From positions 1 to 36,380 of the forward strand of contig JALRGK010000074.1 in NCBI GenBank assembly GCA_023253415.1: a stretch of 36,380 nt of DNA, written 5' to 3'. Position numbers and translations under genes: made by a program. The notes under the pieces are model-generated. The model made no database searches, had not been told where the DNA came from, and worked only from the letters and a program-made list of their open reading frames with translations. The stretch is from Rhodocyclaceae bacterium (lineage in GTDB: Bacteria > Pseudomonadota > Gammaproteobacteria > Burkholderiales > Rhodocyclaceae). Shown here piece after piece: positions 29,809-36,377 of this stretch (position 1 is its first letter; every line of letters begins with the position of its first letter).

Positions 29809-30243
29809 TCAACGATGAGATCTCAACTTTTCAATCACGCTGTAGAGGCTCATACCTGCCAGCAAGCTGGCCATGTAGATCACACCTTCAGGTACACCCG
29901 CCCCTAGGAGCACTAAGCCGGGCCCGGGGCAAATGCCCGTAATGCCCCAACCTATGCCAAAAAGGACTGAGCCGGCAATCAGACGTCCATCAATCTTGCG
30001 ACTGCTCGGTAAGTTCAAAGGCTCACCCAACAAAGTTTTAGGTTGCCTTTTCAGCATCGCAAAACCAATACTCCCAACGACCAGGCCACCCCCCATCACC
30101 AAACCCAGTGACGGATCCCATGGGCCTGCCACATCGAGAAACCCAACAACCTTTGCAGGATTGGCCATCCCGGACAGAATCAGCCCTAGGCCGAGTAGCA
30201 AACCGGCCAGACCGGCTGTTATCCATTGATAGACACGACTCAT
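29809..30243 (-). CDS. YeeE/YedE-family half-size membrane protein (putative sulfur-compound transporter subunit)
   Basis: GLILSGMANPAKVVGFLDVAGPWDPSLGLVMGGGLVVG, LFGIGWGITGICPGPGLVLLG; the SGMxxPxKVxGFLD and GxGWGxxGxCPGP signatures. Confidence 0.9.
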   Translation of the reverse strand: MSRVYQWITAGLAGLLLGLGLILSGMANPAKVVGFLDVAGPWDPSLGLVMGGGLVVGSIGFAMLKRQPKTLLGEPLNLPSSRKIDGRLIAGSVLFGIGWGITGICPGPGLVLLGAGVPEGVIYMASLLAGMSLYSVIEKLRSHR

Positions 30244-30246
30244 CGA

Positions 30247-30702
30247 TCAGGCTCCCAGCACATGGCGCATGATAAAAACCGTCACGATGGCCGAACCCAT
30301 GAAACTGCACACAGCCATTAGCGAACGCAACGAGAACCGAGAAAGGCCGCAAATCCCGTGACCACTGGTGCAACCATTGGCATACCGTGTGCCCAGGCCA
30401 ACTAGCAGGCCGCCAATAACGAGTCCCATGGTACCAATTTGCTGTACGGATTGTGGTAAAGCCATGAGCGTCGACCACACAGCCGGCGCACCGATCAAGC
30501 CGATCAGAAAGGCAACGCGCCAGCCAAAATGTTCCCGCTTCTGTTGAACCAGTAATTCGATGAGATGGCCAAGAATACCGCTGATACCCGCAATACGACC
30601 ATTCGTCCAAGCCAGCCACACGGCTGCCAGACCGATCATGCCACCACCGATCAATGCCGCAATTGCTGCATTGAGTGTGAATGCGTCCCAATCAATCGTC
30701 AT
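30247..30702 (-). CDS. YeeE/YedE-family half-size membrane protein (partner)
   Basis: ALIGGGMIGLAAVWLAWTNGRIAGISGILG, GLLVGLGTRYANGCTSGHGICGLSRFSLRSL. Start trimmed to MTIDWDAF (30702). Confidence 0.9.
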   Translation of the reverse strand: MTIDWDAFTLNAAIAALIGGGMIGLAAVWLAWTNGRIAGISGILGHLIELLVQQKREHFGWRVAFLIGLIGAPAVWSTLMALPQSVQQIGTMGLVIGGLLVGLGTRYANGCTSGHGICGLSRFSLRSLMAVCSFMGSAIVTVFIMRHVLGA

Positions 30703-31118
30703 ACAGCACACCCTTTGGTGGCCGACGCTTTGGTTTTGGCCGAAGACGTGGGCGTTGTGCAGTACAGACGATGCAGCGTTTCAAGAATCACCTGCACATG
30801 CGGATGGGCAACCCGGTAATAAATGTACTTCCCATCACGGCGGGTTGCAACAAAACCTTCATTACGCAACACGCCCAGCTGCTGTGACAGCGTTGGCTGT
30901 TGAATGTTCAGCAATTCCTCTAACTCGCCAACCGAGTATTCTCCTTCCAGCATCTGGCAGAGCAATAGCAGACGATCAGGATTGCCGATCACTTTAAGCA
31001 AGGAAACGACCTGCGCAGCTTGCGTCCGCATCCAATCGAGGTCGAGGACAGGTGCATTAGCAGGGGCTCGGGGCGAAGTTGACACAACTTCAGCTGGTTT
31101 CGGTTTTTTGAGTGCCAT
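30699..31118 (-). CDS. ArsR-family transcriptional repressor, BigR/SqrR-like
   Basis: VVSLLKVIGNPDRLLLLCQMLEGEYSVGELEELLNIQQPTLSQQLGVLRNEGFVATRRDGKYIYYRVAHPHVQVILETLHRLYCT; cysteines at both BigR/SqrR positions; ATGA overlap with the first yeeE-like gene. Confidence 0.9.
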   Translation of the reverse strand: MALKKPKPAEVVSTSPRAPANAPVLDLDWMRTQAAQVVSLLKVIGNPDRLLLLCQMLEGEYSVGELEELLNIQQPTLSQQLGVLRNEGFVATRRDGKYIYYRVAHPHVQVILETLHRLYCTTPTSSAKTKASATKGCAV

Positions 31119-31239: not shown

Positions 31240-31458
31240 ATGACATTGTTCCCAACCTGGAAAAAACCCAGCGGCGCACCTGTGGCCTGCGTTGAGAAGA
31301 TCAAGGTTCTTAACGAGAATTTTGCAGAACTTCGTAATCTTGCGCAGGAAACATTGGACGATGCGCTACTACTCGGTTGTAGCGAGGCGCAGATCCGTCA
31401 GGCACTACGTGACTTGGTCGATAGTCTGGACACAGACTATAAAGAACTACCGGAATAA
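31240..31458 (+). CDS. Small conserved-looking protein of unknown function (72 aa)
   Basis: Complete ORF MTLFPTWKKPSGAPVACVEKIKVLNENFAELRNLAQETLDDALLLGCSEAQIRQALRDLVDSLDTDYKELPE; -10-like TAGAAT immediately upstream; no overlap with other genes. Confidence 0.65.
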   Translation: MTLFPTWKKPSGAPVACVEKIKVLNENFAELRNLAQETLDDALLLGCSEAQIRQALRDLVDSLDTDYKELPE

Positions 31459-31463
31459 CCCCT

Positions 31464-32531
31464 TTATAACCAGTTGAGGCGTCGTGCAGGCCAATCTAGG
31501 ACAGCTGTCCGATCAATCATTCTTGACGCCAGATGCGGATAAGCTTCGGCAATAACCTGTCGGGCGAAGCCTGACAAAAAGCGGGCTTTCAATTCGGCAC
31601 GGGCTCGATCAACGCCAATGCTTTCATAAGGCACCGATGAAAACAGCAGGAAACCATCTTCAGGAATTCTGCCTGCCTGCATATTCGCCTCAATAATCCC
31701 CGCCGCTTTGATAATCGGCTCGGCCAGATTGGGGCTATATGGACCGATGATTAAAGCCAGGTTAGGGGTATGTAAGAAATCAAAGCCCCGCCCCAGGCAA
31801 ATCATCCATTCACGGTGTTCAATGTCGAGTTGACGGTGCCCCTCGACCAGAGCCTGGCGCATGCGGGATACATGACTGAAATTCCCGAGTAGGAGCGGTA
31901 TCAGATCCTCTTTCACGCTGCCATGCATATCCGGAAACAGCCGATTCAGGCGATGTCTCAGATCGATTGGCTCTGCTTCGGCCAAGTCTGCAACATCAAG
32001 GCGCTCGCCATGCGCACCATGGAGCACGAGCGCCTCTTCGTCGGTTTCAAAGCCACAAACGAGTGGATAAACCGTGGCATGCGCTTCACCGAATACCGCG
32101 GATATCTGCTCACGAATCTTTTGGGTATGCGCCAATGCCGCCGCCTGATCGTAGCCAAAACCAGCACATCCCCGATGGGCGTCGGACTTCGAATAGTGGT
32201 AAGTCACCATAAACAGCACACGCCGACCTTCGTGCACCCGATCCATCACGTACTGCGTGACCACTTCACCAAGGTGCGGCCACCCTAGGTCAAAGCGCCC
32301 GCCAAGATTGCGGAATGGCATCAGAATGCCGACAGGCATGCCTGTGGCTACAGGAATATTGATACGGCCATCCATACACTTTAAAACGGCGATGGCGGTA
32401 GGATGCTCGCTCAAATATAGCGAACGAGCCAGAACGGCTTCTGGACTTCGAAATGCATCTCCGTGGCGTTCAGCCAGATCGGCAAGCCAATCGATTCGCG
32501 CGCTGATCGGCTGCATTTGCATCGTGCTCAT
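31464..32531 (-). CDS. CsoSCA / beta-carbonic-anhydrase-like putative zinc protein
   Basis: AVLKCMDGRINIPVATGMP and VTYHYSKSDAHRGCAGFGYD give a CxDxR...HxxC pattern; C-terminal LIIGPYSPNLAEPIIKAAGIIEANMQAGRIPEDGFLLFSSVPYE. Start at 32531 preceded by AGGAG. Confidence 0.7.
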   Translation of the reverse strand: MSTMQMQPISARIDWLADLAERHGDAFRSPEAVLARSLYLSEHPTAIAVLKCMDGRINIPVATGMPVGILMPFRNLGGRFDLGWPHLGEVVTQYVMDRVHEGRRVLFMVTYHYSKSDAHRGCAGFGYDQAAALAHTQKIREQISAVFGEAHATVYPLVCGFETDEEALVLHGAHGERLDVADLAEAEPIDLRHRLNRLFPDMHGSVKEDLIPLLLGNFSHVSRMRQALVEGHRQLDIEHREWMICLGRGFDFLHTPNLALIIGPYSPNLAEPIIKAAGIIEANMQAGRIPEDGFLLFSSVPYESIGVDRARAELKARFLSGFARQVIAEAYPHLASRMIDRTAVLDWPARRLNWL

Positions 32532-32561: not shown

Positions 32562-33605
32562 TCATATCTTGGGAAATGCTACGAGATGATCAATTTCCAA
32601 GCGGATACCGATCATCTCACCCACCGCATGGTCGTGGTGACTCGGCACCAACGACAGTACCCGATCACCGGAAGGAAGTTCGAGCGTATACAAGAATGCA
32701 GCACCACGAAACACGCGTTCGAGGACGCGTGCCCGCACCGTACTGTGGTCATCGTGCTGGATATCATCCGGGCGAATCAACACATCCACGAACTCACCTT
32801 CCGGAACATCAACTGGTTGGATCCGGCAAAGCTCACCTAGCTCAAAGCTGATGCAATTATGTCCGCTAACGCGGGCCGGCAGGAACACACCATCACCTAC
32901 AAAGGTAGCAATATGCCGCGTTGCCGGCTCGTGATATAGCGCATATGGAGACGACCACTGCTGCAGTTGTCCATCAACCATCACCCCGACACGATCAGCC
33001 ATAGCAAAAGCTTCCTGCTGGTTATGCGTCACCAGCAGTGCGGTTGTCCCTGTGGCCTTGAGAATGTGGTGGACATCGATTGAGAGACGTTCACGCAGCT
33101 CCACATCCAGATTCGAAAACGGCTCATCAAGCAGTAACAAGGTTGGACCTGGTGCGAGGGCACGGGCCAAAGCGACACGTTGCTGCTGCCCACCCGATAA
33201 CTGGTGTGGATAACGTTTCCCGGCCTCAGACAGACCGACCAGCGCCAGCATTTCAGTGACCCGATGACGTTTATCGGCACTCGCCCATTCGCGCAGGCCA
33301 AAGGCAACATTATCGGCCACTGACATATGCGGGAAAAGTGCATAGTCTTGAAACACCATACCAATCTGACGTCGCTCGGGAGCTAACTGCCAATCCGCAT
33401 CTGCGACCCAATGACCATTTAAGGCAATGCGCCCTGACTGGAGTGGTTCAAAACCGGCGATTGCCCGAAGAACGGTCGTTTTGCCACAACCGGAACCGCC
33501 TAGCAAACAACCGATCTCGCCTGGTGCCAGACTAAACGACAAACCACTGACCACCGACTTACCGGTGTAGCCCAAAACCACCGAATCCAGAATCAGTGCA
33601 TCCAT
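32562..33605 (-). CDS. fbpC: Ferric iron ABC transporter ATP-binding protein (FbpC-type)
   Basis: LLGGSGCGKTTVLRAIAGFEPLQSG, GMVFQDYALFPHMSVADNVAFGL, LSGGQQQRVALARALAPGPTLLLLDEPFSNLD, C-terminal TOBE-like region. Start trimmed to MDALILDS. Confidence 0.92.
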   Translation of the reverse strand: MDALILDSVVLGYTGKSVVSGLSFSLAPGEIGCLLGGSGCGKTTVLRAIAGFEPLQSGRIALNGHWVADADWQLAPERRQIGMVFQDYALFPHMSVADNVAFGLREWASADKRHRVTEMLALVGLSEAGKRYPHQLSGGQQQRVALARALAPGPTLLLLDEPFSNLDVELRERLSIDVHHILKATGTTALLVTHNQQEAFAMADRVGVMVDGQLQQWSSPYALYHEPATRHIATFVGDGVFLPARVSGHNCISFELGELCRIQPVDVPEGEFVDVLIRPDDIQHDDHSTVRARVLERVFRGAAFLYTLELPSGDRVLSLVPSHHDHAVGEMIGIRLEIDHLVAFPKI

Positions 33606-33621: not shown

Positions 33622-35247
33622 TCAGTGGAAACCAGTCTCGGATTTCCTGACCAATAGAATAACCGGCAAAAGGCCCGCCAGCACAATGGCCAGACTTGGC
33701 AGGGCTGCCCGATCCCACATCCCTTCCGAAGTCATCTCGAATACGCGTACCGCCAGCGTATCCCAGCCGAATGGTCGCGTCATGAGCGTAATTGGCATTT
33801 CTTTCATGACATCGACGAACACGATCAGAACTGCTGTCATTAATCCGCCTCTCACCATCGGCAACTGCAAACGCAACAACACCTGACGCGGAGATAGGCC
33901 GAGCGACCGCGCTACGTTACCCTGATTACGGGTGATACGTTGCATGGCAGCATCGATCGGTTGATAGGCCACTGCCAGAAACCTCGCCGACAAGGCCAAC
34001 AACATCACGAGCAATGATCCTTTGAGAATTTCAGATACTTCCCAGCCGAGTGCGCTGGCCAAGACGATCAACCGGTTATCAAGCCAGGCTACGGGGATGA
34101 ATACGCCCACGGCCAGCACAGTCCCGGGGATGGCATAGCCAAGGGTTGCTAAACGCACGATCCATTGGGTAGTCTGATCTTTATGGTGTTGCCGTATCGC
34201 GCTGAGTAATAACCCCAGCACAGTCACCACCAGTGCCGCCAGTCCGGCCAACCAGACGGAGTGCAAGAGAAAAACAGGGTATCGCGCATCAAAATCAGTC
34301 ACCCAGACATCGCGCACCCACACAAGCAATTGCAGCAACGGTACGGCAAATGCCATGGCAAAGACCAGACCGCAAAACACGACCGCTGCCCAACGTGAAC
34401 CGCCCGTTAAACGGATACGAACTGGGCTGAAGCTCTTGTTGGCATAGCGTCGGTTATCCTGTAGCCGCTGATCCACTACCGCTAGAACCAGCACAAAGAG
34501 CACCAGTAGAGACGCCAGTTGACTGGCGGCTGATAGATTGAAAAGAGAAAACCAGGCTTTGTAAATGGCGGTGGTGAAGGTATCAAAACTAAAGATAGAT
34601 ACGCTCCCGAAGTCAGCCAGTGTCTCCATCAGCGCCAACGTCATGCCGCCGGCAATCCAGGGACGCGCCATGGGCAACGCCACCTTCCAAAAGGCCTGGA
34701 AGCGGGTATAACCTAGGGCTTGCGCAGCTTCAACCGCCCGCAAGCCTTGCGTCATAAAGGCATTACGGGCCAGAAGATAGACGTAAGGATAAAAAGCCAA
34801 TGTCAGTACCAGCACGACCCCGCCCGTGGAGCGAATCGGGGGAAACCAGGGTACGCTGCCAAACCAAAGGCGTAAGGTTGTCTGTACTGGGCCGGTAAAA
34901 TCGAGCAATCCTACTTGAACAAAAGCGAGCACATAGGCCGGGATCGCCAGTGGCAACATTAGTCCCCAGGAAAAGAATCGCCGTCCGGGAAAATCACATA
35001 CTGCCGTCAGCCAGGCTAAGGGAACCCCGAGGAACAGGACCCCTGCGCCCACCCCAAAAATCAAAATCACCGTATTGAGTAAAACGCCCGGCAATACATA
35101 TTCTGCAAGGTGCGACCATATTTCAGGCTGCGGATCAAAAAACGAGGCCAGAACAACAAAAAGGGGGATGAGCGTTAAAGCAGCAATGGCCAGGGCCCGC
35201 AAGGGGCCCCAGCCACGCCAGTTCCATAGAGATCCGCGCTGTTGCAC
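33622..35247 (-). CDS. fbpB: Ferric iron ABC transporter permease (FbpB-type, fused two-domain)
   Basis: Two permease halves with EAA-like loops (AVEAAQALGYTRFQAFWKVALPMARPWIAGG; NVARSLGLSPRQVLLRLQLPMVRGGLMTA). Confidence 0.93.
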   Translation of the reverse strand: MQQRGSLWNWRGWGPLRALAIAALTLIPLFVVLASFFDPQPEIWSHLAEYVLPGVLLNTVILIFGVGAGVLFLGVPLAWLTAVCDFPGRRFFSWGLMLPLAIPAYVLAFVQVGLLDFTGPVQTTLRLWFGSVPWFPPIRSTGGVVLVLTLAFYPYVYLLARNAFMTQGLRAVEAAQALGYTRFQAFWKVALPMARPWIAGGMTLALMETLADFGSVSIFSFDTFTTAIYKAWFSLFNLSAASQLASLLVLFVLVLAVVDQRLQDNRRYANKSFSPVRIRLTGGSRWAAVVFCGLVFAMAFAVPLLQLLVWVRDVWVTDFDARYPVFLLHSVWLAGLAALVVTVLGLLLSAIRQHHKDQTTQWIVRLATLGYAIPGTVLAVGVFIPVAWLDNRLIVLASALGWEVSEILKGSLLVMLLALSARFLAVAYQPIDAAMQRITRNQGNVARSLGLSPRQVLLRLQLPMVRGGLMTAVLIVFVDVMKEMPITLMTRPFGWDTLAVRVFEMTSEGMWDRAALPSLAIVLAGLLPVILLVRKSETGFH

Positions 35248-35279: not shown

Positions 35280-36308
35280 TCAGCGATATCCCGCGCGGTC
35301 CATCAGCTTGGTTGCTGCTGCCTGCAGTTCACCGGCTTTCGACACGTTGATGAGGTCCATTTTATAAGGTCCCCAGTGACGAATGATCGAATCCGGTTTG
35401 ACTTTGGGGTTGGCGGGATATTCGAAATCTTCATTCGTATAAATCGATTGCGCTGTCTCACTCGATAGCCATTCGATCAGCTTTTGAGCCCCGGCGGCAT
35501 TCGGTGCGTTTTTGGTCACTCCCGCGCCAGACACGTTCACGTGAACGCCTCGCTCTTTCTGGTTCGCCCAGAACAACCCGACCGGGAGATTGGGATCCTT
35601 ATCCAGGGCACGTGCTAGGTAGTAGGTATTCACAATACCGACTTCACACTGTCCTGCGGCCACTGCTTTGATCACGCCGTTGTCATCCGCAAAAACATCG
35701 GTTGCCAGATTGGCAATCCAGCCACGCACTACCTCTTCAGTCTTCTGCTCCCCTAATGTCGCCATCATCGTCGCCACCAGCGATTGGTTATAGACCTTCT
35801 TCGAGGTGCGCAGGCAGAGTTTCCCTTTCCACTCGGGCTCGGCCAGTGCTTCATAGGTTGAGAGCTTCGAGGGATTCACAAATTTCTTGTTATAGATGAT
35901 CGTACGGGCGCGTACCGACAAACCATACCACTCACCCTTAGGATCGCGTAGGTTAGCCGGGATGTTGGCATTCAATACTGGCGACTTAATCGGCCGCAAC
36001 AAACCAAGCCGCCCAGCATGCCAGAGGTTACCGGCATCAACCGTAATGAGCACATCAGCCGGGCTTTTGGCGCCTTCTGCTTTGAGACGCTCCAGCAACG
36101 GACCCTCCTTATCGGTCAACAACTGGATCTGCGTGCCTGTTTCTTTGGTGTACGCATCAAAAAGTGGCTTGATCAGTTGCTCGTTGCGTGCCGAGTAGAC
36201 AGTGACCGTATCCGCATTGACCCCAGCCGTAACCAACATCAGCGCCGATGCCAGCGCAGTTGCAAAGTTTGGCAGAAGTGTCTTGCGTGGGCGAAGCACG
36301 ATTTTCAT
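35280..36308 (-). CDS. fbpA: Periplasmic ferric-iron-binding protein (FbpA-type)
   Basis: Signal peptide; TVTVYSARNEQLIKPLFDAYTKETGTQIQLLTDKEGPLLERLKAEG; NTYYLARAL tandem Tyr; start trimmed to MKIVLRPRK. Confidence 0.93.
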   Translation of the reverse strand: MKIVLRPRKTLLPNFATALASALMLVTAGVNADTVTVYSARNEQLIKPLFDAYTKETGTQIQLLTDKEGPLLERLKAEGAKSPADVLITVDAGNLWHAGRLGLLRPIKSPVLNANIPANLRDPKGEWYGLSVRARTIIYNKKFVNPSKLSTYEALAEPEWKGKLCLRTSKKVYNQSLVATMMATLGEQKTEEVVRGWIANLATDVFADDNGVIKAVAAGQCEVGIVNTYYLARALDKDPNLPVGLFWANQKERGVHVNVSGAGVTKNAPNAAGAQKLIEWLSSETAQSIYTNEDFEYPANPKVKPDSIIRHWGPYKMDLINVSKAGELQAAATKLMDRAGYR

Positions 36309-36348: not shown

Positions 36349-36377
36349 ATAATACTAGGAATAATTCTCATTAACAA
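36349..36377 (-). promoter_or_regulatory. Promoter of the fbp operon with overlapping Fur-box-like sequence
   Basis: -35 TTGTTA (36372-36377), 17-nt spacer, -10 TATTAT (36349-36354); AATGAGAATTATT (36360-36372) matches the Fur core AATGATAATCATT at 11 of 13 positions. Confidence 0.65.

Follow-up and report, generated by a model that had tools for sequence, protein, structure and literature searches.

The gene that follows the ferric iron transporter genes fbpABC in the window (the whole stretch of DNA analysed, 36,380 nucleotides from a Rhodocyclaceae bacterium) is real and intact, and it probably encodes an active carbonic anhydrase of an already known, uncharacterised family, the CsoSCA2 proteins named in PMC9164163. 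We favor the reading, at a probability of about 0.8, that the product is a cytosolic zinc enzyme for CO2/bicarbonate supply, and that the placement of its gene behind fbpABC is local, the transcript being possibly Fur-controlled in some species. This reading draws on homology, the predicted fold, the conserved active site, purifying selection and the non-conserved iron linkage. The N-terminal beta-carbonic anhydrase (beta-CA) domain would bind zinc through Cys52, His112 and Cys122, Asp54 and Arg56 would form the catalytic pair, and a degenerate copy of the domain would make up the C-terminal part. The enzyme would interconvert CO2 and bicarbonate for carboxylating enzymes, alongside an ordinary beta-CA. 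In some species its gene would lie fourth on a probably Fur-controlled fbpABC transcript, so that a shortage of iron may increase its expression. The features discussed are listed in Table 1.

Table 1. Position of the carbonic anhydrase (CA) gene, its predicted active-site residues and its neighbours in the window.
Feature	Position	Strand	Remarks
Two YeeE/YedE-type (sulphur transport) half genes	29809..30711	-	PF04143 for 30250-30711; block in five genus members
ArsR-family regulator	30699..31118	-	Downstream block conserved in genus
72-aa protein, unknown family, convergent with CA gene	31240..31455	+	Adjacent in 5/5 genus members examined
csoSCA2-type carbonic anhydrase gene, 355 aa	31464..32531	-	Active and degenerate beta-CA domain; PF20686, AlphaFold model, Foldseek, tree
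Cys122 of RGC, predicted zinc ligand	32166..32168	-	54/54; corresponds to Cys253 in HnCsoSCA
His112 of YHYS, predicted zinc ligand	32196..32198	-	54/54; corresponds to His242 in HnCsoSCA
CMDGR: Cys52 predicted zinc ligand, Asp54/Arg56 predicted catalytic pair	32364..32378	-	54/54; corresponds to CADGR of CsoSCA
fbpC, ATPase of Fe(3+) ABC transporter	32562..33605	-	Stop codon 30 bp upstream of CA gene
fbpB, permease of iron ABC transporter	33622..35247	-	
fbpA, periplasmic Fe(3+)-binding protein	35280..36308	-	7li0 match
Fur-box-like site GTTAATGAGAATTATTCCT upstream of fbpA	36357..36375	-	13/19 to consensus

The reading frame is open over all 355 codons, and a GGAG, the ribosome-binding sequence, precedes its ATG. 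The Pfam model CsoSCA_cat (PF20686) matched the protein with E=8.8e-8 and 32.3 bits (curated cut-off, 21.5), whereas the ordinary beta-CA model PF00484 gave no match up to E=1, and no Pfam match to the CsoSCA N-terminal domain was found in it. With TIGR02701, the equivalog for carboxysomal CsoSCA, the protein scored 40.9 bits, far under the cut-off of 241.05. The AlphaFold2 model, for which the 54-sequence alignment served as input, was confident (pLDDT 91.7, pTM 0.87), and a Foldseek comparison with the PDB returned the CsoSCA structures 9g4t, 2fgy and 8thm (H. neapolitanus, Cyanobium) as the best matches (E 6.6e-16 to 3.5e-14, TMq 0.68-0.74), with ordinary beta-CAs much weaker. In a tree of 105 rows, the window protein fell among 86 CsoSCA2-type sequences, and the 19 CsoSCA rows lay across a 100/100 branch. 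The resemblance to CsoSCA that the first-pass annotation had noticed is thus far beyond chance (E=8.8e-8 for PF20686, E=6.6e-16 for Foldseek). Its picture of a stand-alone CsoSCA-like carbonic anhydrase in a probable fbpABC operon, on the fbpC strand and 30 bp after the fbpC stop, which ends at 32562, agrees with the profile match, the model, the structural comparison and the neighbourhood. No carboxysome or RuBisCO genes were seen in the neighbourhood within the window, as the same annotation had stated.

CsoSCA2 was described in 2022 (PMC9164163) as widespread outside carboxysomes, with the active-site residues kept and an N-terminus shortened to about 40 aa that forms two helices; its function was called unstudied. 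A later paper used the family merely as an outgroup, and our literature search found no measured activity of any CsoSCA2. The window protein fits the second (truncated) variant in each feature tested: homology to the CsoSCA catalytic part, the full set of active-site residues, a two-helix N-terminus of about 40 aa (helices 9-27 and 30-42, then a strand at 46-52 in the model), a separate clade and a position outside a carboxysome locus. Length and the arrangement of one active and one degenerate domain are likewise shared; so is the presence of such proteins, away from carboxysomes, in Beta- and other Proteobacteria, with Accumulibacter among them. What differs is the location of the gene downstream of fbpABC, together with a Fur-box-like site; the main text of that study lacks the word “iron”. 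Our analysis adds a well-modelled member to this widespread family, with an active site assigned by alignment.

The protein shares with the carboxysomal CsoSCA (epsilon, or carboxysomal beta-CA; 2fgy, 9g4t, 8thm) the fold, the ligand order Cys...His...Cys, the Asp/Arg pair and the degenerate C-terminal domain, but the identity in the structural match is only about 20%, the long N-terminal domain is missing, the TIGR02701 score is low and the gene is without carboxysome neighbours. It has the Cys-x-Asp-x-Arg motif and core fold of ordinary beta-CAs (PF00484), but its predicted ligand histidine lies 10 residues before the second cysteine and not in HxxC, it has no PF00484 match, and a separate PF00484 gene is present in the same genome. 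The CxDxR motif also occurs in DabA (PF10070; CMDDR in L049), which lies near CsoSCA2 in several genomes; DabA is, however, a separate and much larger family that was not found in the window's genome.

The zinc ligands of HnCsoSCA are Cys173, His242 and Cys253 (PMC12646314). A profile alignment (hhalign) to canonical CsoSCA paired CMDGR with CADGR, YHYS with YHTS and RGC with EGC, so that Cys52, His112 and Cys122, with the Asp54/Arg56 pair, are the likely zinc site. All five residues are conserved in 54/54 aligned sequences. The first-pass annotation had placed the two cysteine codons correctly (32376-32378 in CMDGR and 32166-32168 in HRGC) and had read them as a CxDxR...HxxC arrangement. The cysteines of this pattern stand, but the histidine of HRGC, His119, is a histidine in only 13/54 sequences; since the conserved histidine at the ligand position is His112 in YHYS, the HxxC pattern is incidental, and the ligand assignment is corrected accordingly.

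Every orthologue in the genus has a length of 1065 bp, and the two closest genus pairs gave dN/dS values of 0.043 and 0.056, indicating purifying selection; for the remaining pairs, in which dS was saturated, pN/pS was 0.19-0.27. A rival possibility is that the protein is a CsoSCA-fold metal-binding protein that has lost its carbonic anhydrase activity and has another zinc or regulatory role. The presence of an ordinary beta-CA in 22 of 25 CsoSCA2 genomes means that the activity may be redundant, and the branch of the window copy is longer (0.41) than those of its congeners (0.13-0.24). Against this, none of the 54 sequences departs from the predicted ligands or the Asp/Arg pair, and the window protein deviates in merely 2 of 150 near-invariant columns of that alignment. 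We therefore regard a loss of activity as very improbable.

Genes in GC-rich loci were called by a codon-based method. Strong matches to CsoSCA2 were found in 25 of 151 genomes of the bacterium's own family and weak ones in 2. In whole-genome searches of the phylum sample, PF20686 failed to detect CsoSCA2, even the gene in the window, whereas a family alignment detected it in 12/399 genomes, the window's genome included. Loci at 61-74% identity belonged to Rhodocyclaceae, Accumulibacter, Dechloromonas and some records labelled Delta- or Alphaproteobacteria. A PF00484 beta-CA accompanied CsoSCA2 in 22 of the 25 strong-match genomes and was absent from 3. We had also considered that CsoSCA2 substitutes for the usual beta-CA, and rejected this on the same count.

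The placement behind fbpABC is a local rearrangement in a few related species and does not in itself speak for an iron-transport role. The transporter itself is a true ferric one, as FbpA gave E=7e-118 against 7li0, an Fe(3+)-binding protein. The window, L028/G128 and L029, which represent three species of one genus, are the only cases in which the transporter genes lie directly upstream of the carbonic anhydrase gene, the gaps being 30, ~23 and ~25 bp, respectively. In two congeners (G082, G021), fbpA is 86% identical and located elsewhere, away from the carbonic anhydrase gene, which keeps its downstream block of the 72-aa protein, ArsR and the two YeeE/YedE half genes. A further 21 sampled genomes of the family have the carbonic anhydrase gene; their fbpA homologues, mostly 40-45% identical and in two cases only weak, were on other contigs or far from it. 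The co-location of this protein family with iron transporters was thus found in three congeneric species and in none of the genomes sampled outside the genus, where its absence counts against the proposal on the first-pass annotation's own terms. In the gene tree, the window copy groups with the unlinked G082/L083 pair (98/70), a pattern that could have arisen by one gain plus one loss of the linkage or by two gains.

The downstream block of ArsR and the two half genes (29809-31118) is kept across the genus. The 72-aa protein gave no Pfam match, as judged from its L002 homologue, and no NCBIfam match. A second iron-type ABC transporter appeared to lie upstream of the gene in another genus (L014/L084); we rejected it as an fbp system, as its ATPase is just 33-34% identical to FbpC, and by inspection the two genes before the ATPase look like a molybdate transporter's modA and modB. 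In L014/L084 (L084:4887-9065), the carbonic anhydrase gene lies downstream of this modABC-like transporter with one membrane-protein-like gene between them. This suggests that the upstream neighbours of the gene vary by lineage. In Accumulibacter loci (L045-L078), the gene often follows a run that reads like sulphate assimilation (cysH, cysD, cysN).

Only three sites in the whole window, counting both strands, scored 13 or more to the Fur consensus. In all three linked species (the window, L028 and L029), fbpA is preceded by Fur-box-like sites that contain AATGAGAAT and score 12-14/19, which makes Fur control of a putative four-gene transcript of fbpABC and the carbonic anhydrase gene plausible. 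Upstream of the carbonic anhydrase gene in the two unlinked congeners no such site was seen (best score, 9), and our literature search found no Fur-regulated carbonic anhydrase. It is conceivable, though we hold it to be rather unlikely, that in part of the genus CsoSCA2 has in this way become a carbonic anhydrase under Fur control that responds to iron, stepping up CO2/bicarbonate interconversion during iron shortage.

The first-pass annotation had gone further and suggested that the enzyme might supply bicarbonate as a synergistic anion for FbpA-type iron binding. On this view it would serve iron uptake under Fur control, in this way or by some other aid to Fe3+ import. That the gene comes fourth after fbpABC in three species, at a distance of ~23-30 bp, and that Fur-box-like sites precede fbpA in all three would suit such a role. 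The solved relatives of the window's FbpA include a Mannheimia haemolytica protein (1q35/1si0), and this protein binds carbonate. However, only part of the genus shows the linkage, fbpA being unlinked in the two congeners and the 21 other family genomes, and CsoSCA2 is widely found without fbp neighbours. In addition, no export signal was visible by inspection at the N-terminus of the carbonic anhydrase, whereas FbpA is periplasmic, which makes a supply of carbonate to FbpA unlikely. A role in iron uptake is thus unsupported and, in our estimation, very improbable.

The reading of CsoSCA2 as a cytosolic enzyme of CO2/bicarbonate supply is accompanied by a different recurrent context. A DAB operon (DabA, PF10070, plus several antiporter-like subunits) lies within ~9 kb of the CsoSCA2 gene, in convergent orientation, in 11 listed loci (L039, L047, L049, L070, L086, L098 and L104, and the partly overlapping G053, G101, G106 and G126), and L100 has antiporter-like genes near its contig end. 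The DAB-adjacent loci are spread over several clades of the tree, indicating that the recurrent context of CsoSCA2 is inorganic carbon and not iron; this proximity to inorganic-carbon uptake operons is directly testable. Among the 25 strong-match family genomes, 15 had a strong RuBisCO match and 8 had DabA, against ~4 expected if the two were independent and phylogeny is ignored. Searches for RuBisCO in three congeners and in the window's genome, which is 88% complete, gave no match, and DabA was not detected in the window's genome or the genus; the inorganic-carbon context of the relatives is therefore missing here.

That the enzyme belongs, with DAB or related complex-I-like complexes, to a module for inorganic-carbon uptake, (de)hydrating CO2 at the membrane, is highly doubtful, since the repeated DAB neighbours in several clades and the complex-I/Hyf-like operons near a few loci are set against most CsoSCA2 loci without such a neighbour, a genus without detected DabA, and DAB and carbonic anhydrase genes that are convergent and not co-transcribed.

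In the DabA operons beside CsoSCA2 in L149 (2107-11473), L150 (6754-15437) and L151 (6229-15268), several NuoL/NuoN-like antiporter subunits surround DabA, exceeding a two-gene dabAB, and in L062, L088 and L095, Complex-I/Hyf-like clusters (NuoD-like, NuoB-like, NuoN-like) are close to CsoSCA2. In G369 (L148:9060-16601), a CsoSCA2 gene and the carboxysomal CsoSCA gene are ~5 kb apart.
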